Under the pieces are notes generated by a model that saw nothing but the letters and a program-made list of their open reading frames with translations, had not been told where the DNA came from and ran no database searches. The position numbers were made by a program, and so were the translations under genes. Positions 1,065 to 13,637 of a stretch of DNA of 64,000 bases are shown piece after piece; positions within the stretch are counted from its first letter, which is position 1; each line of letters opens with the position of its first letter. The stretch comes from Comamonas sp. B21-038 (GTDB lineage Bacteria > Pseudomonadota > Gammaproteobacteria > Burkholderiales > Burkholderiaceae_C). The stretch is taken from positions 4,278,001 through 4,342,000 of the forward strand of contig NZ_CP092462.1 in the NCBI RefSeq assembly GCF_022387135.1, written 5' to 3'.

Positions 1065-1378
1065 GAAATGGGCGAGATTCTCGCTTGAAACCTTTGTTTT
1101 CAACTATCACTGTTTTTAAAAAACACTATAGTTACTTATGGTTTCTTAACTTATTTATTTCTTACACCCATAACCTGCGGGTATTTTTGGGGCATCTTGG
1201 GATGCCACGCCCGCATTTCCTCAGAGGGCACAGCCCCCATTTATGGAACACAGGCCTTTATCGGTTTCCGGGCTACCACGGCGAGATAGACGCCAAAACA
1301 ACGCAGCGCCGTTACAACACCATTCCCGACAAATTCCCCAGTTTCAGGGATGGCATTTTTTGTTCACTCGCATACCAT

Positions 1379-1398
1379 CGCGGGGGTCCACCCCCGCG
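1379..1398. other. GC hairpin just upstream of the response regulator
   Basis: CGCGGGGG (1379-1386) and CCCCCGCG (1391-1398) pair perfectly around a TCCA loop, followed by TTTGT. The structure ends 15 bases before the chosen start codon at 1414, where no clear ribosome site exists. It could be an attenuator or could hide translation initiation; this is inference. A weaker hairpin (GGCATC 1191-1196 with GATGCC 1201-1206) lies further upstream. Confidence 0.5.
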
Positions 1399-1413
1399 TT
1401 TGTCTGGTTGCCC

Positions 1414-2124
1414 ATGCTTGAACCCTCGTTGCTTGTTGAAGATGCCCTTTTGCCGGTCCCGGTGTTGGTCGTGGAGGACGAGCCGCTTTTGCAGCAACGC
1501 TTGCGCCAGGTGCTCAGGCAGCTGGGCTATGAGGACGATGCGCTGATTTTTACCGGCACCTTGGCCGAAGCCCGTGCCGTGGTGGCCGAAGAGCCGGTGG
1601 GCCTGGCCTTGGTGGATCTGCGCCTGCCCGACGGCAATGGCCAGTCGCTGATCGAAGAGCTGCGGGCCGAAGACCCGGGCCTGGGCATTCTGGTGGTGTC
1701 GGCCTGGAGCTCCGAAGAGCTGATCCTGAGCGCGCTGCGCGCCGGGGCCACCGGCTATGTGCTCAAGCAGCGCGATGATTTTGAGGTGATGCTGTCCATC
1801 CGCAGCGTACTGCGGGGTGGTGCACCGATAGACCCCTTCATCGCGCGGCGCATCTTGCAGCTGCTGCCCATGCGTGCGCCCAAGCCGGCGGGCAGCGCCA
1901 CCCCCGCAGCCCACAGTGGCGAGCTGGACGTGGGCCTGACACCCCGTGAGGCCGAGATTTTGCGCCTGGTCGCCGATGGCATGAGCAACCGGGAAATCGC
2001 CAACGAAGTGCATCTGTCGCGCCACACTGTGGAGAGCCATGTCAAGCGCATTTACCGCAAGCTCGCGGTCTCGTCGCGCATGATGGCCGTGCGCGAAGCG
2101 CGTGCCCGGGGAATGATTGAGTGA
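1414..2124 (+). CDS. NarL/LuxR-type response regulator
   Basis: A 236-residue DNA-binding response regulator. The receiver domain covers about residues 16-135, with the acidic pocket E21-D22-E23, phospho-acceptor D68 (LALVDLRLPDG) and conserved lysine K118 (GYVLKQ). The C-terminal LuxR helix-turn-helix covers about 170-232 (LTPREAEILRLVADGMSNRE). The frame is open further upstream, but the receiver begins only a few residues after ATG 1414; GTG 1462 is an alternative. The last four bases overlap the GTG start of the partner kinase, so the two are translationally coupled. Targets are unknown; the divergent DUF11 gene and the nearby pilus operon are candidates by position only. Confidence 0.85.
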   Translation: MLEPSLLVEDALLPVPVLVVEDEPLLQQRLRQVLRQLGYEDDALIFTGTLAEARAVVAEEPVGLALVDLRLPDGNGQSLIEELRAEDPGLGILVVSAWSSEELILSALRAGATGYVLKQRDDFEVMLSIRSVLRGGAPIDPFIARRILQLLPMRAPKPAGSATPAAHSGELDVGLTPREAEILRLVADGMSNREIANEVHLSRHTVESHVKRIYRKLAVSSRMMAVREARARGMIE

Positions 2125-4136
2125 GCCGGCGCTGGAACCCCCTTCCCCGGCTGCTGCAAGCCGGGGCGTATCTGCTCGCACTGTGGTTTTGGCTGTGGGC
2201 AGGGCCGGCCATGGCCCAACAGCCGCCATCGGGCACCAGCAACGTGGCCAGCTGCAGCGTGCGGATTCTGCAGACCGATGCCGCCCGCGCCAGCACGCTC
2301 AACCCCGCCCTGCCCGCCCCGGCCGATGGCTGGGAGCCGGTCACGCTGCCCGATCTGTGGACCAGCCGCTGGCCCACGCACGATGGCGCCGTCTGGTACC
2401 GCATTGCCTGGGAACGCGCCTGTGATGGCCCACCGCAGGTGCTCGATGCCGAGTCTGCCGTGGCACCGACGGCGGTTGCGCTGGGCATCGATGGCATCAG
2501 CGTGGCGGGAGCGGTCTATGTGAACCATGACCTGCTGTGGAGCGATGCCTCGCTGGTCGAGCCGCTGTCGCGCAGCTGGAATGTGCCGCGCTGGTGGCTG
2601 CTGCCGGAATCGACGCTGCAGCCAGGCACCAATACCATCTATGTCTACGCGGTCGGCCACCGGGCGCTGAGCCCCGGCCTGGGCCAGCTGCGCCTGGGCA
2701 CGCCGCAGGAAGTAGCCGATGTACAAGCGGGCAAGCAATGGCGCCAGCGCACGGTCTACTTTGTCAATGCCGTGCTCTGTGCCATGGCGGGTGTGCTGTT
2801 TTTCAGCATCTGGCTGCTGCAGCGCAAGGCCCGCACCTATGGCTGGTTTGCGCTGATGGCCCTGTGCTGGATGCTGTACCTGAGCACCTACCTGGCGGGC
2901 ACCCAGTGGCCCTGGCCCGATTCGCTGACCCGCAGCCGCTTCAGCCTTATTGCCTTGCTCGGCTATGTGCTGAGCGTGTGCATTTTCACATTCCGCTTTG
3001 GTGCGCAGAAGCTGCCCTGGGTGGAGCGCTTTTTGTGGCTGCTGGCCTTCATCGGCGCTGCCATCACCTGCCTGGTGCCGCCCGAGCATGCACGCCAGGG
3101 CTTCAGCCTGGTGTGGCAGGGCGCGACGGCGGTGTTCCTGGTCAATGGGCTGCAGTTCCAGGTCCATGCCTGGTTTCCGCGCAAACGGCCGCGCAATCTG
3201 GCGCATATCCTGCTCGCCTGCATCTGGCTGCTGCTGACCTTGGTGGCGCTGAACAACCTCTATTCGGTATTGGACCGCTGGCAGGTGGCGCGCGACTGGG
3301 CGGCGCTCAGCGGCGTGCTGGTGATCGGCCTGCTGATGCTGCTGCTGGGCGGCCAGCTGGTACGGCAGATGCACGAGGTGCGGCGCTTCAACCGCGAGCT
3401 GAAGGTGGGCGTGGAATCGGCCCGCAGCGAGCTGGCCCAGGCCCTGCAGCGCGAGCATCTGCAGGCGCTGGAGAACGCGAAGTTGCAGGAGCGCATGGCC
3501 CTGGCCCATGACCTGCATGATGGCCTGGGCGGCAGCCTGGTGCGCAGCATGGCGCTGGTGGAGCAGTCGCCCGACACCATCAGCAGCGCGCGCGTGCTGT
3601 CGCTGCTCAAAGGCATGCGCGACGACCTCAACCAGCTGATCGACTACGGCTCCAGCGCTGGCGCGGCAGTGCCTGAGACCCCTGTGCAATGGGCCGCACC
3701 GCTGCGCCACCGCATCACCCGCATCCTCGATGAGATTGGTGTGCAGACGCACTGGAGCATTGCCGCGCAATGGCAGGGCACGGTCGAAGAAGGCAAGCGC
3801 CCCAATGCGCTGCAGTGCCTGCTGCTGACCCGGCTGGTGGAGGAGGCGCTGTCCAACGTCATCAAGCACAGCCATGCCAGCAAGGTGCGGGTGGAGTATT
3901 CACAGCCCAAGCCCAACCAGCTGCTGGTGCGGGTCGAGGACGATGGCGTGGGCTTTGATGTGCAGGCGGTGCAGCGCGCTGGCCAATCGGTGGGCATGCG
4001 CAGCATGGCCGCACGCGCCCAGCGCCTGGGCGCCAGCTTCAGCGTGCAATCGAGCCCTGCCGGGACAATGGTGACGGCGGTACTGCAGCTGGGCACCGGT
4101 TTGCCGGCGGCGGCGCCGGGGGCGGAGCCCCGGTGA
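2121..4136 (+). CDS. Sensor histidine kinase, 7TM-DISM/HisKA_3 type
   Basis: A 671-residue membrane kinase starting at a GTG within the regulator's stop codon (GTGA overlap). It has a signal peptide (cut near AMA-QQ), a periplasmic beta-rich sensing region to about residue 205, then a run of about seven transmembrane helices to about 415 and a short coiled linker. The HisKA_3 box ERMALAHDLHDGLGG puts the phosphorylated histidine at about H466. A HATPase domain follows, with N-box LVEEALSNVIKHSHA and G-box EDDGVGFD. This arrangement is typical of NarX/UhpB-like kinases that pair with LuxR-type regulators. The ligand is not predictable from the sequence. Confidence 0.87.
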   Translation: MSRRWNPLPRLLQAGAYLLALWFWLWAGPAMAQQPPSGTSNVASCSVRILQTDAARASTLNPALPAPADGWEPVTLPDLWTSRWPTHDGAVWYRIAWERACDGPPQVLDAESAVAPTAVALGIDGISVAGAVYVNHDLLWSDASLVEPLSRSWNVPRWWLLPESTLQPGTNTIYVYAVGHRALSPGLGQLRLGTPQEVADVQAGKQWRQRTVYFVNAVLCAMAGVLFFSIWLLQRKARTYGWFALMALCWMLYLSTYLAGTQWPWPDSLTRSRFSLIALLGYVLSVCIFTFRFGAQKLPWVERFLWLLAFIGAAITCLVPPEHARQGFSLVWQGATAVFLVNGLQFQVHAWFPRKRPRNLAHILLACIWLLLTLVALNNLYSVLDRWQVARDWAALSGVLVIGLLMLLLGGQLVRQMHEVRRFNRELKVGVESARSELAQALQREHLQALENAKLQERMALAHDLHDGLGGSLVRSMALVEQSPDTISSARVLSLLKGMRDDLNQLIDYGSSAGAAVPETPVQWAAPLRHRITRILDEIGVQTHWSIAAQWQGTVEEGKRPNALQCLLLTRLVEEALSNVIKHSHASKVRVEYSQPKPNQLLVRVEDDGVGFDVQAVQRAGQSVGMRSMAARAQRLGASFSVQSSPAGTMVTAVLQLGTGLPAAAPGAEPR

Positions 4137-4261: not shown

Positions 4262-7200
4262 TTAGTTGGTCACCGCCTCGCGCCAGCTGATGCGTTTACC
4301 CTGTGGCTTGGGGGTCGCCACGGGGATGACGATATCAATCGGCGTTCCCACGACACCGGTCTGGATGTGGCTGGTCACGGTGCCATCCCGGTTAGCCGTC
4401 AGCGCATTGCCGACGATCATCGTATCGGGTACCTGCTCGCCAGCGGGGCCGCCTTCCGGGTTGCCGTTTACCGCCAACCCTGTCTCAAAGTTGAGGTAGT
4501 TGAGCCAGCCATAGCCGCCTGCCAGGCAAGGCTCGTCGGATGGCACATTGCTGGCCACCACCAAGGTGGTGCCGGCCAACAGCATATTGACGTTCACCCG
4601 TTCACGATCGATGGGCAGATCGACATACCAGCCTTTGCGGCGGTCATTGCAGACGGCATGGTCACGGCTTGCGCAGCGCAGCGTACGGACAATCTTGCCG
4701 GTCACATCGGTGGTCGCCCTGAGCTCGGATTTCTTGAGGTCTGCCCGGAAGGCGGGACCGCTCATGGCATAGCCTTCCGGCTTGTCATCAAAGCCGTAAA
4801 TCGATTGCCGCTTGTCGTCCGTCATATCCGCTGGGCCAAACAAGCGGCCGGTGGCGACCAGAATGCGCGGCAGCTGCGTGCCGCCTTGTACCAGCTCTAC
4901 CCGTGTGGTGACGGGTTGTGGCTGCCCGCCGTCGTCGGTCAACCGTACCACGCGCTGCACTTGGAACTGGCTCGCGGCCACATCCCACTGGAAACGCCAG
5001 ACATTGCCGTCCAGATCGCCGCCATAGAGCAAGCGGGTGGTGTTGTCGCCGGCAGGGTCGCGCAAGTAGTTGTTGATCTCACGCAGGCCGGTGCCGCTGG
5101 GGGTGGTCATTTGCGCGATGGTCGCGCCGGTGCTGGCATTGAGCACAAACACATGGTTCTTGCCATCGGCATTGTTGTAGCCCGAGGTGAGGAACACCGC
5201 CCAGGTGCCATTGGGGTGTTTGGAGACCATAGGCCGGCCAAAGCTCAGGCCCATCTCGGGCAGGCTGGCTTCCCACAGCGGCTGGGGTTGCAGCGGGTTG
5301 GTGATGTCGAGCGCGTAGTAGCCCTTGCCCCCCTTGTTGAAGCCGCCGACAAGGATGGTCTTCCAGGCGCTGCCGTCGTGGATATCGGCCACGACGGGCG
5401 AGCCATCGACAAAGTAGCGGTGGGCACTGTCGTAGTCCACACTGGCCAGGCGTGCCATTTCGGGCATCACGGCGGTGGGGACAAAGGCCCAGGCTTCGCG
5501 CGCGGCCACGGGTACCGTTCGGCCGCCAATGGTTTCTGTCTTGCGCAGATCGGTTTCGGCATGGAAGGCATGCAGCATGCCGTCATTGCCGCCCACATAC
5601 ACCATGGGCCTGCGGTTTTGCTGGCTCAGGCGGTAGGCGGCATACCCGGCATCGCGGTAGCGGCGCGTGGGCTTGCCCACGTACAGGGGTTGCGAGCTAA
5701 TGATGTCGCCCAGGCGGCTTTCACGCGGGCGGTAAAGCTTGCGCACATCGCCCAGCGCAAAGTCTTCCAGGCTGCGGTCACCGCGCAGGTAGTTCACCAG
5801 ATTGGCGCCTTGGGCGGCCTCCTTTTGCGCATCGTTCATCTGCGCGTACTGGGCCAGGCGGGTGCTGATGGCGGACGCTTCGAAATGGCTGCGCAGGCTG
5901 CCCAGGTTGGCGTAGGTAAATTCGGCCAGCCTGCCCCCGTTCATGAACAGAATGCGTCGGTTGTCAGTTGCCAGGTCGCGCCTGTCCAGCGCATCCTTGG
6001 CCGACCAGCCTTCGATTTGCGTGCGTTTGCCGGAGCTGAGGCCAATCTCAAAAGCCTGCAGATCGCCCGACCAGCGGCCAGTGCGGTAGGTGGCGGCATA
6101 GGCAAAGTTGTTGCCCGCTTCGGTGATCGGCGAGGTCACGCCCACGCTGCCGCCAGAGCCCAGCGCCGCGCGGATATCGGCAAACACCTCTGCCAGGCCG
6201 GACTGGATGGCTGATGGATCATTGGCGCTGAAATACAGGCCCCGGCCATTGACGGCCGTGTGCCAGAAGTCATCGATGGATTCCGGGCTCTCCTCATTGG
6301 CCCCTTCACGCGGCCAGATGGGCCAGGTTTTGAGGCCGCTGCGCAGATCGGCAAAGTCGCCCGCGCCAGCCTTGTAGTCCTTGTGGTACTTCAACGTGCC
6401 CGATACCCCCATGCCGATCACATAGGTGCTCATGTGCTGCCAGGTGGCCTTGTCATCCTCGGCCCCTGTGCCCACCGGCCGCACCTGGTTGGGCCAGCCG
6501 CGTGGGGTACTGTTCTCGTCACCGGGGCGCAGATCGGTGGCGTAGTAGTACTGCGCCACATCGGCCAGCGAATTGCTGCTGCCGCCCGTAGCCGGGTTCA
6601 GGTGGTCCTCGTTGCAGGGCAGGCTGCCGCAGCGGGTGTGCGTTGCTGGCAACGCGGCCCAGGGGGCTGTGCCGGGCTGGGGTCTTCCGGCGGGCGGCAG
6701 TTGCTGCGCGGGTTCAAGCGGATAGCAGATCGCAGGCGATTCCAGGTCGCCATTGAACGCGACCCGTCCTGGAGGGCTGACCAGGGTACGGCCCGTTTCG
6801 GCGGTACCTGTCAGGGTCACATGGTCGGTCCAGCGGTGGCCGCTGTAGACCTTCTTTCTGCCGGTGACCTCTTCGCAGGTCTCTGCCGGGCAGCGGGCTG
6901 GTCTGGTGGGATAAATCTCCGTGGAACCCACACCCACACCACTGCAGTCGGTCACCTTGCGGGTATAGCGGTTATAGCCAGGCACGCACAACTCACCTTG
7001 GGGCACGTCAATCGTTACAGGGCCTTCCTTCACGCACAGGTACTCCACGCCATTGGCATCGGTGCTCTCTTCGCAGGCAGCGAATTCAGCTTCAGACTGC
7101 AGGTAAGTCACACCATCGGAGGTGCTTCCGTCGAAGGAATAACAAGCGCTTGTGACATAGTCGTTTTCTGGCCTTGGCTGCGGTCCGAAGGGCAGATTTG

Positions 7201-10138
7201 CCAACCGGGCTGCGCAGGTGCCATAGCGCATGTCTTCTCCAGAATTTCTAAAAACGCACAGACCCAGTTTTTTATACCCGTCCACAATCGGATCTGTGCA
7301 GTTGGGAACATTTCGTTCCGGATCCGATTGTCCCTCGCAGGAGGTCCGCACCCAATCGGGGGCCCTGGGTGCATTGACGACACAGGCAGAAACCAGTTCG
7401 GGCTCGCTACTCACCTGTTGGCACACGCTGTAGATACAACCGTTTTCTGGCGTCGCGACCTGCGGGGTGCAAGTGGCAGGGTTGGCGGGTGTGGGCGACG
7501 GCGGCAGCAGGCCTTCCTTGCCACGGGCCGGCGTGCAAAAACCCGATTCCGGTGGTTGAACCGGGGTGTTTTGGCACTCTGTGCCGACCCAGCCATTAGA
7601 AAAACTGGGTGCCACTGGCGTGCAGGAGGCCACGCCGCGCCAGGGGGTGGTGCGCCGCTCACAACTCAAGTCATAGTCAGGACCGATCCCCTCACTACAA
7701 GTGTTCGTCGGCGGGCCCCAGACGCTCTGGGCATCGGTGCAACTGACGGCATAGTCACCCTCGATGCCTGCCTGACAGTTGCGCGACGCAACCGTACTGC
7801 TCTGCGGTATGCCTCGGCCTGCGCACCGCACGTCGATGCGGCCCGGCTGGTCAGGCAGTGAACCGGGTTGGCAGGACGCGACCATTTCCGAAGCACTTTG
7901 CTGCGTGCATTCGGTGTAGGTGTTGCTCGCAGCGTCCCATGCCGGCGTGCTGGTCACTTGGCAGCTGTTGTCGGTCTCTCCTTCAAACCCATTGACTGCT
8001 TCGCGCGCACAACTGGTATGGCGAAAGCCGTTGGCCTGGGTGCCAGCTTCGCTGATGCACTGCTCTTCTGACACATAGCTTTCCTGGCGGTGGCTGCTGT
8101 CGCAATTGCTGTATTGCACCAAAGCCGTGTTGCCCCCAGCGGCCCGGATAGCGGCAGCCAGTTGGGGATGCAGGTTATTGCAGGTCAGTACCGGGCCGCT
8201 ATAGGCGGGAACGGCGACGCCTTCGCAAGCAATGGTGCCCACGCCCGGTACAAACTGGCCATTGCGGCTGCACATCGAGATGCCGACATCTTCTTGGCGG
8301 GGGCCATCGCACTCCACGTTGTAATCACCAGCCATGCCGGGGGTACAAGCCTGTACCACTTTCCAGCTGTCCCCGCCGCGCGGCTCCACCGTACAGCCGC
8401 TGGGAAAGGCTTCGCAGACCGACTTGTCCGTGGTCTTCAACTCCACTTCGCCCTGCGCCGGGTCTTTGTACCAGTAGAAGTAGCGCTTCTCGCGCACTTG
8501 AGTGGCTGTGGCCCGCGCCCAAGGCGTCTGGGTTTCGGTACTCCAAGTGGTGGTGAGCTTGTTACGGTACTGCTTTTTATTGATGTAGTTCCAACTCAGG
8601 CGCTGCTGGTGCAGGTTCTTGGTAACCGTGTGCCTGCCCTGGGCAGTCCAGTACTGGCGGGTGCTCATCAGGTCATTGCCGATCGAGGCCGGCGCTTTGC
8701 GGAAGATCTGCATGCTCTGGCTGACTTCCTTGCGCCACCAGATTAGATTGCCGTAATACCATTGTTGATAAAAGTTGTCCTTTTTAGCGACTCGCTTATA
8801 GATCGTCTCGGTCTTGGTGCCTCCCCCAGGCACCGTCACTCTCCAGCCAAGCCTGCAGCTGGCCAGTGCGTAATCGACATCGGCATCGTGCGCCAGGCGG
8901 TAGCCACTGACCGAACCATCGTAAATAGGACGCGGAATCAAGCCCTCTGGCGGCGTCAGACCCAGCGGCGGGCCGTCTTGCTGGCCGACCAGGGTCACGC
9001 CATCGATCTGCACCGGGCCTCTGCCCTTGGTCTCCTGGCCGGTGTTCCAGTAGCCGTCGGTGGTGACGATGGTGTAGTGGCGCTGGCAGGCGGAGATGAC
9101 GGGGTCGACAAAGGGCAGCATCGTGTCGTTGATGCTGTCGCTTTTGCCGGCGTAGTAGCGGCCCACACGGGCCAGGGCCTCGCGCGTGGGGGAGGTGCCC
9201 CCGGTTTTGGCGCTCTGGATGGTCTGGAACCAGGTCTGCTTGTCGGTGCCCCAGAAATCCTTCACCGGCAGGAAGTGGCTGTGCGCGCCCGAGCCGGGCT
9301 TGGCCACCGTCATGAAGCCGATGCGGAAGTTGTCGTTCAGCGTGCCAAAGGCCAGGCTGACGGAGGACTTGGCCATGTTGATGCGCGTGCGGTAGTAGCT
9401 GTACCAGATGGCAAAGTTGCGCTCTTTTGCCGCCGTGATCCTCACGCGCGACCAGCGCCCCGTCACACGACCATTGGGCACCCCGCTGACAAACATGTTG
9501 ACCAAGTCGCTGACTTGCACGCTGCCGTCATCGTCAAACAGTTTGGGCTCTGCGGGCCAGGTACAGGTTTCTTCGCGTTCCCAGCTGGGCATGGTGGGGA
9601 AGCGGCTGTCGCGAGGCGTCCAAACGAAGTGATAGGCACGCTGCGGTGGATCGACGTAGAGGTCACGGCTGCGCGTATTAGCGTCGTATGCCTGAAATGA
9701 GGTGGCGAGATTGACGACGCCCTGCGACTGGTCGTAGCCGTCCTTCCAAGCTGCGGAGAAAGTGGGCACGGGCATGTCGGTGGTGCCATCGGCCTGCTTG
9801 GGCAGCGGGTAGCTGGTATCGGGGTTGTAGTAAAGCGCGTTGCACAGCGCGCTTTTGTAGCCCACCGGGAAGTACTTGGTTTCACGCCGCTCCCAGCCAT
9901 CGGGCATGTGGCTCCATTTCATCGAATCCGAGGTGTCGAGCAGCAGCATCACATTGGGCTTGGTCTGGTCGCCCAGAATGCCCAGCGGGACATCGGCAAT
10001 ATCGACCGCATCGCTGGATGTGGAGTCGGCGGCTGCGTTACTGGCAAACAAGCCAGCCACTACGGTGGCAGCAGCGAGCATGGCCCACAGGCTTGCGGCC
10101 CGGGGCCATCGCAGCGGGGGTTTGAATTTTTGAAGCAT
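4262..10138 (-). CDS. pilY1: PilY1-type type IV pilus tip adhesin with cysteine-rich insertion
   Basis: A 1958-residue protein, far longer than Pseudomonas PilY1 (about 1160). ATG 10138 is preceded by AGGAGAGG. Residues 1-37 are a signal peptide. A von Willebrand A-like domain begins with the MIDAS motif DTSDS at 68-72. Residues about 570-1095 are an insertion with about three dozen cysteines and degenerate C-x2-G-x3-DY-x3-C units. Residues about 1400-1958 are the PilY1/PilC beta-propeller (YVGGNDGMLHAF, VGGFNKGGKGYYALD, YGGDLDGNVWRF). PilY1 primes pilus assembly with the minor pilins and acts in adhesion and surface sensing. It is the last gene of the minor pilin operon, 81 bases after pilX. 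Confidence 0.92.
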   Translation of the reverse strand: MLQKFKPPLRWPRAASLWAMLAAATVVAGLFASNAAADSTSSDAVDIADVPLGILGDQTKPNVMLLLDTSDSMKWSHMPDGWERRETKYFPVGYKSALCNALYYNPDTSYPLPKQADGTTDMPVPTFSAAWKDGYDQSQGVVNLATSFQAYDANTRSRDLYVDPPQRAYHFVWTPRDSRFPTMPSWEREETCTWPAEPKLFDDDGSVQVSDLVNMFVSGVPNGRVTGRWSRVRITAAKERNFAIWYSYYRTRINMAKSSVSLAFGTLNDNFRIGFMTVAKPGSGAHSHFLPVKDFWGTDKQTWFQTIQSAKTGGTSPTREALARVGRYYAGKSDSINDTMLPFVDPVISACQRHYTIVTTDGYWNTGQETKGRGPVQIDGVTLVGQQDGPPLGLTPPEGLIPRPIYDGSVSGYRLAHDADVDYALASCRLGWRVTVPGGGTKTETIYKRVAKKDNFYQQWYYGNLIWWRKEVSQSMQIFRKAPASIGNDLMSTRQYWTAQGRHTVTKNLHQQRLSWNYINKKQYRNKLTTTWSTETQTPWARATATQVREKRYFYWYKDPAQGEVELKTTDKSVCEAFPSGCTVEPRGGDSWKVVQACTPGMAGDYNVECDGPRQEDVGISMCSRNGQFVPGVGTIACEGVAVPAYSGPVLTCNNLHPQLAAAIRAAGGNTALVQYSNCDSSHRQESYVSEEQCISEAGTQANGFRHTSCAREAVNGFEGETDNSCQVTSTPAWDAASNTYTECTQQSASEMVASCQPGSLPDQPGRIDVRCAGRGIPQSSTVASRNCQAGIEGDYAVSCTDAQSVWGPPTNTCSEGIGPDYDLSCERRTTPWRGVASCTPVAPSFSNGWVGTECQNTPVQPPESGFCTPARGKEGLLPPSPTPANPATCTPQVATPENGCIYSVCQQVSSEPELVSACVVNAPRAPDWVRTSCEGQSDPERNVPNCTDPIVDGYKKLGLCVFRNSGEDMRYGTCAARLANLPFGPQPRPENDYVTSACYSFDGSTSDGVTYLQSEAEFAACEESTDANGVEYLCVKEGPVTIDVPQGELCVPGYNRYTRKVTDCSGVGVGSTEIYPTRPARCPAETCEEVTGRKKVYSGHRWTDHVTLTGTAETGRTLVSPPGRVAFNGDLESPAICYPLEPAQQLPPAGRPQPGTAPWAALPATHTRCGSLPCNEDHLNPATGGSSNSLADVAQYYYATDLRPGDENSTPRGWPNQVRPVGTGAEDDKATWQHMSTYVIGMGVSGTLKYHKDYKAGAGDFADLRSGLKTWPIWPREGANEESPESIDDFWHTAVNGRGLYFSANDPSAIQSGLAEVFADIRAALGSGGSVGVTSPITEAGNNFAYAATYRTGRWSGDLQAFEIGLSSGKRTQIEGWSAKDALDRRDLATDNRRILFMNGGRLAEFTYANLGSLRSHFEASAISTRLAQYAQMNDAQKEAAQGANLVNYLRGDRSLEDFALGDVRKLYRPRESRLGDIISSQPLYVGKPTRRYRDAGYAAYRLSQQNRRPMVYVGGNDGMLHAFHAETDLRKTETIGGRTVPVAAREAWAFVPTAVMPEMARLASVDYDSAHRYFVDGSPVVADIHDGSAWKTILVGGFNKGGKGYYALDITNPLQPQPLWEASLPEMGLSFGRPMVSKHPNGTWAVFLTSGYNNADGKNHVFVLNASTGATIAQMTTPSGTGLREINNYLRDPAGDNTTRLLYGGDLDGNVWRFQWDVAASQFQVQRVVRLTDDGGQPQPVTTRVELVQGGTQLPRILVATGRLFGPADMTDDKRQSIYGFDDKPEGYAMSGPAFRADLKKSELRATTDVTGKIVRTLRCASRDHAVCNDRRKGWYVDLPIDRERVNVNMLLAGTTLVVASNVPSDEPCLAGGYGWLNYLNFETGLAVNGNPEGGPAGEQVPDTMIVGNALTANRDGTVTSHIQTGVVGTPIDIVIPVATPKPQGKRISWREAVTN

Positions 10139-10219
10139 TTCCCTCTCCTTGGTTCTCGTCGTTGGCTGCTGCCCGGGAGTAAGGGCCATGCCAGGGGGCG
10201 CGCCTGCGCGCTGCCGTCA

Positions 10220-10804
10220 TCAATACACGGTCATCTGCACATAGCTCACGGTGGCGCGCGGGCCCACTGCACGCGCGCTGATGCGGTACATGGGCCGGTC
10301 ATTGCAGGGCACTACGCTGCCAGGGCTGTCGGATGAGCCGGGGCAGCCGGTGCCTTCGGGTGCCACGCACGATTGGCCTGCGGCATTCAGTGGGCCCGCT
10401 GCGCTGCACAGGCGATGGATCATGTAGCGCACTTCATTGCCCAAGCCGTCATCGGCGGTGGCTTGTTTGCCACTGGCATCCCATAGCAGCTCCTTGGCCG
10501 CGACCCTGGGGTCGAAGCTGGCAAAGTAGCCTGCGCCGGCGTTGTCACCGTCCAGCGCCGCGCCGTTTTGCGACAGCTGATCGAGTTGTGCCAGCCCATA
10601 CTCCAGGCCCAGGTCGGCACCGGTAGTGGCTGTTTGTTTGAGTGCCAGGCTGCCCGCGATGGAAGAGCCCGTCGTGGTGGTACGCACCAGCGCCAGGCTG
10701 GTGAGCGTCATTACCAAAAGCACGACCAGTGCGACCAGCAGCACGACGCCGCGTGCGCTGTGTGGACGCGTGGCGGGAAATGGTTGGCGGTATCGGATCG
10801 TCAT
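10220..10804 (-). CDS. pilX: Type IV pilus minor pilin PilX
   Basis: 194 residues. ATG 10804 overlaps the pilW stop in an ATGA junction. A 19-residue leader ends in ARG before the hydrophobic helix starting VVLLVALVVLL, the prepilin peptidase site. Position +5 of the mature protein is valine, not glutamate, as is usual for PilX/GspK-like pilins that cap the pilus tip complex. The rest is soluble, with several cysteines near the C-terminus (LCSAAG, SCVAPEGTGC, VVPCND). It works with PilV, PilW, FimT and PilY1 in pilus initiation at the inner membrane. Confidence 0.85.
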   Translation of the reverse strand: MTIRYRQPFPATRPHSARGVVLLVALVVLLVMTLTSLALVRTTTTGSSIAGSLALKQTATTGADLGLEYGLAQLDQLSQNGAALDGDNAGAGYFASFDPRVAAKELLWDASGKQATADDGLGNEVRYMIHRLCSAAGPLNAAGQSCVAPEGTGCPGSSDSPGSVVPCNDRPMYRISARAVGPRATVSYVQMTVY

Positions 10805-11991
10805 GGTGCTAGTTGCCCCCACAGGGTGTTGCGCAGCGGGATCACGCTTTCGTAGACGCGGTAGCGGTAGTGCTTCCAGTCCGAGTCGGGCGCGTCGTCA
10901 TCTGTCCAGAACTGCTTGCTGCCACTGGCCCAGCGTGGTGGGCTTTGGGTGACCTCGTCACGCTCGTATTGTGAGCTGCGTACTACCACCGCTATGCGTA
11001 CGGCAAGCACCTTCTCCCAGTCCGGTTCGGTGTTGGAGCCGGTCGACGACGGCGAAGCTGTCCACTCAGCCCGGTTGTCAATCTGGCCATCTCCGTTGAT
11101 GTCATAGCCATACTCCGCCTGAAACCTGAGCACATCGTGTGCGACAGACACACTGCTCTCGCTGGTCTCGTTCAGAAAGTTGTAATAGACCAGCTCATTG
11201 CCCTGCAGGCTCCAGACGTGCAACTGCGGCTCGGGACCCAGGTTGTAAAGCGCCCCTTCACCCGGGCTGGTGGTGCCGCCATCTAGCATGTTGCGGCGGC
11301 TGCCGCCGTTAAAACGAGGGGTTACGCTCGTTCCGGTGTAGAAGTTGCTATAGCTTCCGGCACCCTGGCTCACGCGCTTGTCGGGATAGGGTTCGCTGCC
11401 CGAATCCGTAGCCACCGTGGAGCGGGCGCCAGCGGTGATTTCCATCAGCAAGCACTCTTGGGTATTGGTGTCTGAGGTACCCACGGCCACATCGCCGGCA
11501 TGCAAGCCGGCATTGGATTTCTCCATGCTGAAGACGCCGTTGGCACTGGCCTCGTAGCGTGAGCCCATCACCATGTTGGCGGACGAGCCGGTGAGCACCC
11601 ACAACTGCGTATTTCCACTGGTGGCTGTGATACGCACAGGCACTAGCGGGAACGTAAAGGCGCGGCCATTGTTATGCGCCTGCACCGAGCAGCCCAAATG
11701 CCGAGGCTCCATCGAAGCAAAGCCCAGGCCGGCGGAGCGAATATCACGCTCGATGCTGAATAGCGCCAATGCGCCAGCGGTTTGGGCGTTGCTCACAGAG
11801 GAGACCGTACGGCGCTGCTTCTCTGACACGCCATAGAGCTGGTAGATGACAAGCATGCTGGCCAGGCCAATAGCTAGGCCAATCAGGATTTCGATGATGG
11901 AAAAACCAGCTTGGCCTTGTAGCGAGCGTTGCGGATGGCGGCATCCTGCAAGCCGGATCCGTTGCAACCAGGCCATGCTGCCTGTGTCCAT
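10801..11991 (-). CDS. pilW: Type IV pilus minor pilin PilW
   Basis: 396 residues from ATG 11991; in-frame ATGs at 12012 (inside pilV) and 11976 are alternatives. After a basic leader the prepilin cleavage site is QAG before FSIIEILIGLAIGLAS, with the conserved glutamate at +5. The large C-terminal pilin domain (SIERDIRSAGLGFAS and beyond) is typical of PilW/GspJ-like minor pilins. It follows pilV by about ten bases and overlaps pilX by four, which indicates tight co-translation. The product belongs to the pilus initiation complex. Confidence 0.87.
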   Translation of the reverse strand: MDTGSMAWLQRIRLAGCRHPQRSLQGQAGFSIIEILIGLAIGLASMLVIYQLYGVSEKQRRTVSSVSNAQTAGALALFSIERDIRSAGLGFASMEPRHLGCSVQAHNNGRAFTFPLVPVRITATSGNTQLWVLTGSSANMVMGSRYEASANGVFSMEKSNAGLHAGDVAVGTSDTNTQECLLMEITAGARSTVATDSGSEPYPDKRVSQGAGSYSNFYTGTSVTPRFNGGSRRNMLDGGTTSPGEGALYNLGPEPQLHVWSLQGNELVYYNFLNETSESSVSVAHDVLRFQAEYGYDINGDGQIDNRAEWTASPSSTGSNTEPDWEKVLAVRIAVVVRSSQYERDEVTQSPPRWASGSKQFWTDDDAPDSDWKHYRYRVYESVIPLRNTLWGQLAP

Positions 11992-12001
11992 AGGATGGAG
12001 G

Positions 12002-12526
12002 CTAGTGCACATAGGCCTGAATCTGGTAATTGCGCAATGCCGCGTCCTGCGGAGACAGCCAGCACAGCGTGACCGTCACTTGGTTCAACCCATTGCTGGT
12101 ATTCACCAAAATCTGCTGCCTTGTCGGCACTCCACCTGGGAGGCCCTGCACATGTTGTGGGCCACCTCGCGCGGCAGACAGCAAATTGAGGACGTCGACG
12201 TTTTCTGCCTGCTTCCCGCTGAAACTGCAAAGCTCCAGGCTGCCATCCGGCTGGTGCTGCATATTTTGCAGAGATGCAGCCAGCGCCTCAGGCGAGCTGC
12301 GATCCACCCGAAGCGAGATGGCCTGCACAATCTGGGCTGCATACATGCCTGCCTCAGTGCGGTAATGCGCCTGGCCCGACCAGTTGACCGATCGCGCAGT
12401 AAGCCCGGCAATGCCCAGAATGCCAAACACGATGATCATGATGGCGACCAATGACTCGATCAGCATCATGCCCCGCTGGCCACTTGCCGCCGCATATGCA
12501 GGCGCGGTCATACGAGGCATCAGCAT
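12002..12526 (-). CDS. pilV: Type IV pilus minor pilin PilV
   Basis: 174 residues. A 19-residue leader ends in GQRG before MMLIESLVAIMIIVFGILG, matching PilV/GspI-like prepilins, with glutamate at +5. The start ATG 12526 lies inside the end of the fimT-like gene, overlapping by seven bases. The C-terminal half ends VTVTLCWLSPQD, a segment common in PilV. It is part of the minor pilin set that primes pilus assembly and connects to PilY1. Confidence 0.85.
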   Translation of the reverse strand: MLMPRMTAPAYAAASGQRGMMLIESLVAIMIIVFGILGIAGLTARSVNWSGQAHYRTEAGMYAAQIVQAISLRVDRSSPEALAASLQNMQHQPDGSLELCSFSGKQAENVDVLNLLSAARGGPQHVQGLPGGVPTRQQILVNTSNGLNQVTVTLCWLSPQDAALRNYQIQAYVH

Positions 12527-13020
12527 TTCCGGTTGTCTCCGTCGGCACTGACCGCTGGGTCACACATGCGCACCTGGCCACCGGGCGAGATAAGCACGCG
12601 CAGACAGCGCTGGGCGCCACTGTCTTCGAGACAGGTCGCATTGGTGGGCTTGAAGTTCACCGCATTGGCTTGCGGGGTCCGGCCCACGCTGTCAAAGGTG
12701 ACGGTGCTTTGTTCCGCCTCCACAGTCAGGCCGGTTGCACTTTCCACGGTTTTGCTGGCGATTTGTGAGTTGCCTACCGTGACTGTCCAGCCCAGGTTGC
12801 TGTCAGTCATGCCAAGGGCCACATAGGCATTGCGGCGCAGCGCTTCGGCCCGCGCCAGTTGCGCACCATCGTAGTAGGCTTGGGCGGCCGCGCGGATTTT
12901 GGAATCGAGGATGTAAACGGAGACCGATGGAATCGCCAACAACAGCAAAAAGACGGTGAGGGCCAAGCCCACCATCAGCTCGATCAGGGTAACGCCTTGG
13001 CTATAGCGAAACGTAGCCAT
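12520..13020 (-). CDS. FimT/GspH-type minor pilin
   Basis: 166 residues from ATG 13020, which follows GGGAGCTGCTG and overlaps the upstream stop as TGATG. A nine-residue leader ends in SQG before VTLIELMVGLALTVF, a clean class III prepilin site with glutamate at +5. The mature part shows the GspH/FimT pattern (AQAYYDGAQLARAEALRRN and VTFDSVGR) with a C-terminal cysteine. In Pseudomonas the equivalent position holds FimU or FimT; FimT-like proteins can also bind DNA during uptake. Which of the two this is cannot be settled from sequence alone. Confidence 0.83.
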   Translation of the reverse strand: MATFRYSQGVTLIELMVGLALTVFLLLLAIPSVSVYILDSKIRAAAQAYYDGAQLARAEALRRNAYVALGMTDSNLGWTVTVGNSQIASKTVESATGLTVEAEQSTVTFDSVGRTPQANAVNFKPTNATCLEDSGAQRCLRVLISPGGQVRMCDPAVSADGDNRKC

Positions 13021-13514
13021 CAGCAGCTCCCGTCTCTTCGGATGGACCAGCAGCCCGTGCCTTTGGTCCAGCCAGGTGGCACGCTGGCGGTATTGCGGGC
13101 ACCTTCGTGGGTCAGGACAAATTCGAAGCCCAACATAGATCCCTTGCCGGTTGCCCTGACGGTGTAGCTGCTCCCCCGCGGATCGCACCTGTAGCCCCAG
13201 CGTTTGGTATCCGATGGCTGGGCAGCTATCTTGCTTTCACAAGCATTTCGGTACGTCCGGTTATCCTGGTAGAACTGCTCCATCTTGGCGCCCATATCGG
13301 CCAACGGAGTGATGCCTTCCACAATCTGGCCCCGCTTGATGTACTCGCTGTAGCTGGGCAAGGCAATCGCCGACAGAATCGCCACAATGGCGACCACAAT
13401 CATGACCTCGATCAGCGTGAAGCCGCGCCGCGCGGGCGCGATTGCCAGACGCACGGCACGGCGGCTTGCAGGTTGAGCCGGCAGCCGTTGGCCTACTGCT
13501 TGAAACACCATCAT
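13020..13514 (-). CDS. pilE: PilE-like type IV pilin
   Basis: 164 residues from ATG 13514, preceded by AGGGAGGG at good spacing. The leader is long, about 33 residues and basic, ending in ARRG before [19 protein letters not shown], the canonical cleavage and N-methylation site with glutamate at +5. The body ([20 protein letters not shown], then YQDNRTY) is typical of PilE minor pilins. A cysteine pair (NACES and YRCDPRG) and a C-terminal cysteine may form disulfides. As the first gene of the operon it precedes the fimT-like gene, a different order from Pseudomonas, where pilE is last. Confidence 0.85.
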
Positions 13515-13637
13515 GACACCCTCCCTCACCCGCTTGCGCGTGGCGCTGCAATCCTCTAGTCCATTGGATGAAGAGATCGCATTGAGGCATGGAGATGAGC
13601 AGCCACCGACCCAATCATCAATAGAATTTATTGATAT

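Follow-up and report, generated by a model that had tools for sequence, protein, structure and literature searches.

A PilY1-type protein of Comamonas with a cysteine-repeat insertion in its VWA-type domain, and coupled repeat lengths in its relatives

PilY1 of Pseudomonas aeruginosa (PDB 3hx6; PF05567) has a C-terminal propeller, a metal ion-dependent adhesion site (MIDAS) motif in its N-terminal part, and a gene that stands in a minor-pilin operon. Here we compare it with a PilY1-type protein from Comamonas sp. B21-038, encoded in a 64,000-nucleotide stretch of DNA (contig NZ_CP092462.1, positions 4,278,001 to 4,342,000) that was analysed as a whole and is called the window. The window protein shares all three properties. 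In contrast, the P. aeruginosa protein, whose last residue is 1161 in published constructs (PMC11891296), has 11 cysteines, 7 of them in its von Willebrand factor A (VWA) domain (PMC9210963), while the window protein has 46 cysteines and an insertion of 780 residues. This and the following comparisons draw on parts of four papers (PMC8179133, PMC9210963, PMC11891296, PMC13190605).

PilC/PilY1 proteins are modular, with 68 architectures in InterPro, and the propeller acts as the carrier of a variable N-terminal effector part (PMC8179133). The variable part of the window protein differs in sitting within a VWA-type domain, and such insertions are unmentioned in the portions of that paper used here. 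Extra VWA segments beside the MIDAS are described for the pilus adhesin RrgA and the S. sanguinis pilin PilB, but these form two arms, one of them a four-stranded sheet, and the same portions mention no cysteine or heptad array (PMC8179133). Long, VWA-bearing myxobacterial PilY1 proteins of clades 1.6 and 1.7 have a median of 36 and 41 cysteines; they differ from the window protein by description only, in that the main text contains no words beginning with "repeat" or "insertion" (PMC13190605). PilY1, its VWA part, its modular N-termini and its long, cysteine-rich myxobacterial forms are thus already known (PMC8179133, PMC9210963, PMC13190605). From the evidence presented below, we consider it probable that the window protein is a PilY1 with a single arm of ∼780 residues, inserted in the VWA-type domain near the MIDAS and composed of two co-folded arrays, which would serve as an adhesive or reach element.

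An insertion within a VWA-type domain

The product of pilY1 matched the PilY1 propeller profile PF05567 (E 6.2e-38, 131.2 bits, cut-off 28.1, residues 1493-1806), and phmmer aligned it with P. aeruginosa PilY1 3hx6 at E 1.3e-55. The initial annotation had put its excess over the P. aeruginosa protein at about 800 residues, and the value is 814. The distance from TTDG/STDG to LADVA was 832 residues in the window protein versus 48-60 in four insertion-free PilY1 proteins (L085, L131, L088, L068), and therefore nearly all of the extra length is one insertion. On the VWA topology that we presume, this stretch of ∼780 residues interrupts the VWA-type domain after the metal-site loop (TTDG) and ahead of the following helix, at a place that is close in sequence to the MIDAS metal site. 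The features of the protein are as follows.

4262-10189, minus strand: pilY1, open reading frame (ORF) of 1975 amino acids with 46 cysteines
8915-9964, minus strand: VWA-type domain, N-terminal part, residues 76-425 (PF13519 below its curated cut-off; MIDAS residues invariant in 8 aligned proteins)
9923-9937, minus strand: MIDAS motif DTSDS, residues 85-89, read from the sequence
9053-9064, minus strand: TTDG, residues 376-379, presumed MIDAS aspartate; the insertion begins ∼46 residues further on
8855-8857, minus strand: start cysteine, Cys 445, 20 residues after YDG
8417-8854, minus strand: spacer, residues 446-591, corresponding to the heptad array in relatives (Cys-to-Cys length 147)
6875-8416, minus strand: two-cysteine repeat array, residues 592-1105, 36 cysteines in ∼18 pairs (sequence and profiles), taking in the region of the initial annotation
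8309-8347, minus strand: 13-mer CTPGMAGDYNVEC, annotated initially and confirmed
7739-7777, minus strand: 13-mer CQAGIEGDYAVSC, annotated initially and confirmed
7661-7699, minus strand: 13-mer CSEGIGPDYDLSC, annotated initially and confirmed
7574-7624, minus strand: best preserved unit half, CTPVAPSFSNGWVGTEC, residues 856-872 (hidden Markov model, HMM, of the units of relatives)
6584-6874, minus strand: insertion tail, residues 1106-1202, with Cys 1155, 1187 and 1192 (cysteine gaps)
6140-6583, minus strand: VWA-type domain, C-terminal part, residues 1203-1350, with SLADVAQYYY, YVIGMG and GRGLYFSA (sequence and alignment)
4772-5713, minus strand: PilY1 beta-propeller, residues 1493-1806 (PF05567)

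The VWA label is based on the motifs, a sub-threshold Pfam match and the published data on P. aeruginosa PilY1. DTSDS and TTDG are both present, with their key residues in invariant columns of the 8 proteins, although the T of the motif is assigned without certainty, and the second part of the domain is recognizable from SLADVAQYYY, beginning at residue 1207. The profile PF13519 (VWA_2) matched residues 265-345 with E 0.0015 and 19.6 bits (cut-off 27), three insertion-free relatives gave E 0.38 or nothing against VWA profiles, and a search of the PDB with an 8-row profile found no VWA domain. The spacing of 20 residues between YDG and the start cysteine is common to the Comamonas-type proteins and the proteins with regular arrays described below, but three proteins from family f25 do not share it. 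Protein L069 (genome G082) has the place of the insertion in the VWA-type domain occupied, at residues 461-780, by an unrelated repeat of ∼85 residues with two cysteines (gaps 42/43), so that cysteine repeats may generally settle in this loop.

The initial annotation had noted ∼36 cysteines at 6850-8420 (residues 592-1105), with three similar 13-residue units and a looser 17-mer, and had taken them for a repeat of disulfide type in a pilus-tip protein of unusual size. The cysteine count was exact, all four segments were at the positions given, and 26 residues separate the starts of the last two 13-mers. The motif C-x2-G-x3-DY-x3-C was seen three times, while cysteine-keeping shuffles contained it 0.00075 times on average and 0 of 20000 reached three, so that the motif is far above chance. 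That interpretation was supported, and neither Pfam-A nor the PDB gave a match to the insertion at E-values up to 10; the ligand binding or force sensing that it also suggested is a possible role. However, the repeat is broader than the strict motif, with ∼18 cysteine pairs along the stretch, and a 26-residue module was rejected because the parental unit in relatives has ∼29 residues (C-x15-C-x12), the 13-mers being variants of its first half. The three 13-mers are worn copies within a row of ∼18 two-cysteine units. The region first delimited does contain the cysteine block, but its limits are not those of the insertion, which spans residues ∼426 (window ∼8914) to ∼1202 (window 6584). The unit number is uncertain by ∼1, because one unit seems to have an extra cysteine and one to be without its middle cysteine. 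The match of CTPVAPSFSNGWVGTEC to the parental unit runs on to residue 876 (12.0 bits over residues 856-876 with the HMM of relatives' units), and in the tail, cysteine gaps of 50, 32 and 5 correspond to gaps of 45, 36 and 5 in relative L127. Metal or haem binding by the array cysteines was set aside on the ground that the protein is exported.

The location of the insertion raises the possibility of a force sensor, in which the disulfide ladder would be extensible and would unfold or reshuffle its disulfides on pilus retraction, feeding mechanosensing by the VWA domain. We regard this as unlikely. Its placement inside the VWA-type domain favors it, given the mechanosensing role proposed for that domain in P. 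aeruginosa and the importance of cysteines there, as stated in the parts used of PMC9210963 and PMC11891296, and so does the nearly invariant cysteine frame in Comamonas; a regular, braced array, however, would suggest stiffness. Further, the array-bearing PilY1 proteins L133, L141, L142, L144 and L148 of genus g364 have TTGG or ASGG where TTDG is expected, and L146 keeps the aspartate. Accordingly, the MIDAS aspartate was replaced and the array kept in 5 of the 6 g364 proteins with a readable site, and the arm can therefore persist without that residue, which argues against a sensor of this kind.

Regular arrays in relatives and the coupling of two lengths

More regular forms of the array were found in other Burkholderiales. 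Locus L064 together with L089, from another genus of the family, has a PilY1 of 2279 amino acids with a regular 29-residue unit, C-x15-C-x12, at the same place (e.g., CTPQTAAAGNNWTGITCDQVTTGPTLVAS). In L127 and L128, which belong to two genomes from a different family, the open frames extend over 3153 and 3164 amino acids, with 100 array cysteines, or 50 pairs. Over all these relatives, arrays had 26-50 two-cysteine units of ∼29 residues. Since the window protein scored no better than shuffles with an HMM of the single parental unit (see below), homology was tested in the reverse direction, with Comamonas-type profiles against the relatives. An HMM of 13 Comamonas-type insertions gave 35-317 bits on all 16 regular-array insertions and 17-25 bits on the three f25 insertions, and none of 50 cysteine-preserving shuffles of each reached the real score in any of the 19; the L069 insertion, with its different repeat at the same site, gave no score with this HMM. 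These scores indicate that the Comamonas array is homologous to the regular arrays. In our reading, the window copy has an arm of 18 units, and its repeats have drifted apart in sequence. In a tree built from the sequence outside the insertion, with the root not fixed, the 23 array-bearing PilY1 proteins were on one side of one branch (support 99/99). Parental units had only scattered weak matches in Pfam-A (best E 0.0019, in 2 of 10 triplets), and a profile of three-unit parental pieces found nothing in the PDB at E-values up to 10.

The distribution of the arrays was evaluated with two profiles. The profile of 12 Comamonas insertions had matches in 8 of 299 genomes of the family, that of the window included. 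In each of the other seven the matching place proved to be a cysteine array within a PilY1-type frame, and contig ends truncated some of these. Profile A5, made from the parental array and used at thresholds between 1e-6 and 1e-10, matched 14 of 399 genomes of the family and 5 of 399 of the order. It also matched 4 of the 60 f25 genomes, 3 of the 13 from genus g75 and the single genome of genus g2; the samples overlap. In a phylum-wide draw A5 matched 0 of 299 genomes, an empty result of a kind that carries little weight. Because A5 misses the window's own array, degenerate arrays are uncounted in these figures.

Between the conserved start cysteine and the array, the relatives carry a heptad repeat (e.g., QNLQSTV). 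Twelve of the 14 regular spacers had a lag-7 identity of 0.19-0.54, compared with 0.04-0.15 at lags 6 and 8, and 0 of 2000 shuffles reached the lag-7 value. In sequence, the arm consists of the spacer (a heptad array in most relatives) and then the two-cysteine units, and it ends in a tail with conserved cysteines. The heptad pattern of the window protein has apparently faded, and the length alone was kept.

To compare the two arrays we took S as the spacer length from Cys to Cys and n as the number of cysteine pairs. The first eight proteins had (n,S) values of (26,196), (50,364), (50,364), (34,253), (26,194), (26,199), (26,195) and (34,253), giving a slope of 7.00 ± 0.06 (r2 0.9996). The rule S = 7(n+2), within 4 residues, was fixed in advance of six further proteins, whose residuals from 7(n+2) were -7, -2, +5, -8, 0 and -5. 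The slope was 6.61 ± 0.18 for these six alone and 6.88 ± 0.10 (r2 0.9974) for all 14, which come from 8 genera and have n = 26 eight times and n = 34, 44 and 50 twice each. The coupling of S and n holds, at about one heptad per unit, but the exact offset does not. These values include a correction made after the data were seen, in which an extra CxxxxxxC pair before the array of L135, L136 and L137 was discounted; undiscounted, the slope was 7.41 ± 0.39 (r2 0.984). Outside the fit were L134 (spacer start out of frame), L147 and L148 (contig ends), L139 (a fragment), and L149 and L150 (no ORF passing the filter). The window protein, with S of 147 at n of ∼18 versus 140 predicted, was within one heptad of the rule. 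In the literature searched (titles and abstract beginnings, with few subscription journals), neither the 29-residue unit nor its heptad partner nor the length law was described in any of the matches listed.

The coupling might instead be an accident of shared ancestry, with few lineages sampled and the heptad stretch merely a flexible linker, and the restriction of the 14 proteins to 8 genera and four values of n, as well as an advance prediction that was within its margin for two of six, would fit such an accident. We nevertheless judge it quite improbable, since n and spacer shift together in separate lineages (34 and 50 units with S of 253 and 364 in genus g75; n 26 with S 194 in L142 and n 44 with S 315 in L141, paralogues in one g364 genome), and a linker need not keep step. 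Further, when one protein per lineage and n value was used (8 points, window included), only 21 of 20000 random pairings reached the observed correlation.

A four-unit period was present in both arrays of L064, L127, L128 and L130, and the other five arrays were not significant in both (2000 permutations of unit order, eight lags, uncorrected). In the heptads, lag 4 gave p of ∼0.001 or less in these four of eight proteins, with 0.078 in L136, 0.083 in L137, 0.42 in L133 and 0.21 in L135. Values of ∼0.001 or less were also obtained for the second half-unit in the same four of nine proteins, and for the first half-unit in L127, L128 and L137. This period points to a helical rod that completes one turn every four steps, although it is not general in the sample. 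A rule of whole turns (n+2 divisible by 4) was true for the first eight proteins, L134 and four of the six new ones, but was rejected because the two with n = 44 broke it.

Two variations on the arrays were also observed. Within the arrays of L141, L144, L146 and L147, short cysteine pairs with a gap of 8 recur, and a gap of 11 precedes every internal one, which gives the impression of an array assembled in blocks. The three f25 proteins L066, L129 and L138 have both kinds of repeat in looser form and without the start cysteine, and they carry extra inserts (beta-rich looking, e.g., SSITVSGTGG in L129) besides the looser cysteine array; the array units of L129 are in part ∼35-37 residues long.

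Divergence of the arm within Comamonas

An insertion of this type was present in 10 of 100 genomes searched (own included), all of one genus, and the 7 loci from named genomes were all from Comamonas. When 12 proteins were aligned, 42 of 46 cysteine columns were invariant, the other 4 being lost in L060 only, while identity to the window protein was 31-64% in the cysteine-rich part and 68-99% in the second VWA half. The alignment shows that in the Comamonas arrays the cysteine frame is nearly frozen and the remainder variable. This pattern is also relevant to the idea that the tract is cysteine-rich, low-complexity sequence drifting without a fold. Poor AlphaFold2 models and a biased composition are what such drift would give, but we consider it very improbable in view of the cysteine columns retained at this level of array identity, and of open frames of ∼2000-3160 amino acids in several genera.

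In the tree, the window protein groups with L050 (C. koreensis) as its sister (support 100/99). Between them, synonymous divergence (dS) was 2.15 in the spacer and 3.15 in the array versus 0.11-0.44 in the other four regions, and identity falls after about residue 450 and is restored by residue 1175. Spacer and array therefore behave as one block, consistent with recombination, and their strong divergence between little-diverged flanks is best read as a block exchange. Positive selection as the cause of the divergence was rejected because dS is saturated too.

Such divergence would also be expected of an arm that shields the tip or varies under pilus-binding phages or predators, with ligand binding secondary. 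In favor of this are the diverged spacer and array themselves and two pairs from around C. testosteroni, L052-L053 and L052-L054, whose ratios of nonsynonymous to synonymous divergence (dN/dS), 0.73 and 0.77 for the array and 0.81 and 1.39 for the tail, exceeded the 0.11-0.35 of the VWA halves and the propeller. In the other 6 of 8 pairs, however, array dN/dS was 0.10-0.21, mostly no higher than in the flanks, and the window's own genome has a single array copy, with no second copy or silent donor cassette found at E-values up to 1. We therefore give an escape surface a small chance, about that of the force sensor.

At locus L061 (genome G020), a remnant of 357 amino acids with part of the cysteine array (2828-3901, minus strand) replaces the minor-pilin/pilY1 cluster. 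The neighborhood of a response regulator, a kinase and zinc ABC genes, judged by sequence, is the same as in the window, an arrangement that would result if deletion and decay had removed the cluster.

Proposed fold, operon and meaning

In the reading that we prefer, of a PilY1 with a long arm, the spacer and the cysteine units would pack together in a single rod braced by disulfides. From the VWA domain the chain would follow the heptads outward, turn around, and come back to the VWA domain by way of the disulfide units. A chain that runs out and back must therefore keep an equal number of steps on both sides, and folding against each other would be the simplest cause of two unlike arrays being matched step by step in length. 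More tentatively, ∼n+2 heptads and n two-cysteine units might co-fold stepwise into a rod with four steps per turn, as a new architecture, the heptads forming a four-sided solenoid on the inside, with 28 residues per turn and a sheath of disulfide-linked hairpins, and arm length would be set by n and changed by gains and losses in both arrays; this specific model is possible but doubtful. The rod would lift a variable surface off the pilus tip and act as an adhesive or reach element, with the MIDAS as a second, dispensable contact. A conserved cysteine frame, a variable surface and cassette exchange are in keeping with a surface for contact at the tip of the pilus. As for function, reach and adhesion are our first choice, and force sensing and escape from tip-binding enemies would be the main rivals.

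A number of observations weigh against a long, co-folded arm. AlphaFold2, run on eight sequences, gave a mean predicted local distance difference test score (pLDDT) of 31.6 for residues 580-1200 and 31.8 for residues 76-1275. The single-unit parental HMM found one good unit in the window protein, with a whole-sequence score of -4.3 that was equaled or exceeded by 277 of the 455 reported shuffles (of 500). The window spacer has no detectable heptads (lag-7 p 0.62) and is 7 residues longer than 7(n+2), and among the regular spacers the lag-7 signal was weak in L145 (0.18, 38 of 2000 shuffles) and absent in L143 (0.12, 399 of 2000 shuffles). Four of the six new proteins missed 7(n+2) by more than 4 residues, with residuals reaching about one heptad, and the f25 arrays L066, L129 and L138, without the start cysteine, were outside the fit. 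Within Comamonas, identity to L050 also dips outside the insertion (residues 151-250 and ∼1776-1850), and raised dN/dS was confined to 2 of 8 pairs.

The minor-pilin genes (10220-13529, minus strand) sit upstream of pilY1 as follows.

10220-10822, minus strand: PilX-like minor pilin (Pfam PilX profiles, below their cut-offs)
10801-12012, minus strand: PilW minor pilin (Pfam PilW profile above cut-off)
12002-12526, minus strand: PilV-like minor pilin, named from position alone (ORF without a Pfam match)
12520-13188, minus strand: FimT/GspH-like minor pilin (Pfam FimT/GspH profile above cut-off)
13020-13529, minus strand: ComP/PilE-like minor pilin (Pfam ComP profile above cut-off)

The first minor pilin of the operon (13020-13529, minus strand) matched ComP_DUS, a DNA uptake sequence receptor, with E 2.1e-10, hinting that the pilus of this operon may have a role in DNA uptake. 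At 1243-4136 on the plus strand, a LuxR-type response regulator and a membrane histidine kinase, judged by sequence, have their ends facing the 3' end of pilY1, and the same pair also occurs at L061. The genome encodes two more PilY1 paralogues, of 1203 and 1209 amino acids.

PilY1 is a main tip adhesin and a proposed force sensor of type IV pili, and the arm marks a possible variable contact surface on it. The natural series of arms, with ∼18, 26, 34, 44 and 50 units, permits a direct test of reach and stiffness. In addition, that two unlike repeat arrays of a single chain are coupled step by step poses an unusual problem of folding and evolution.

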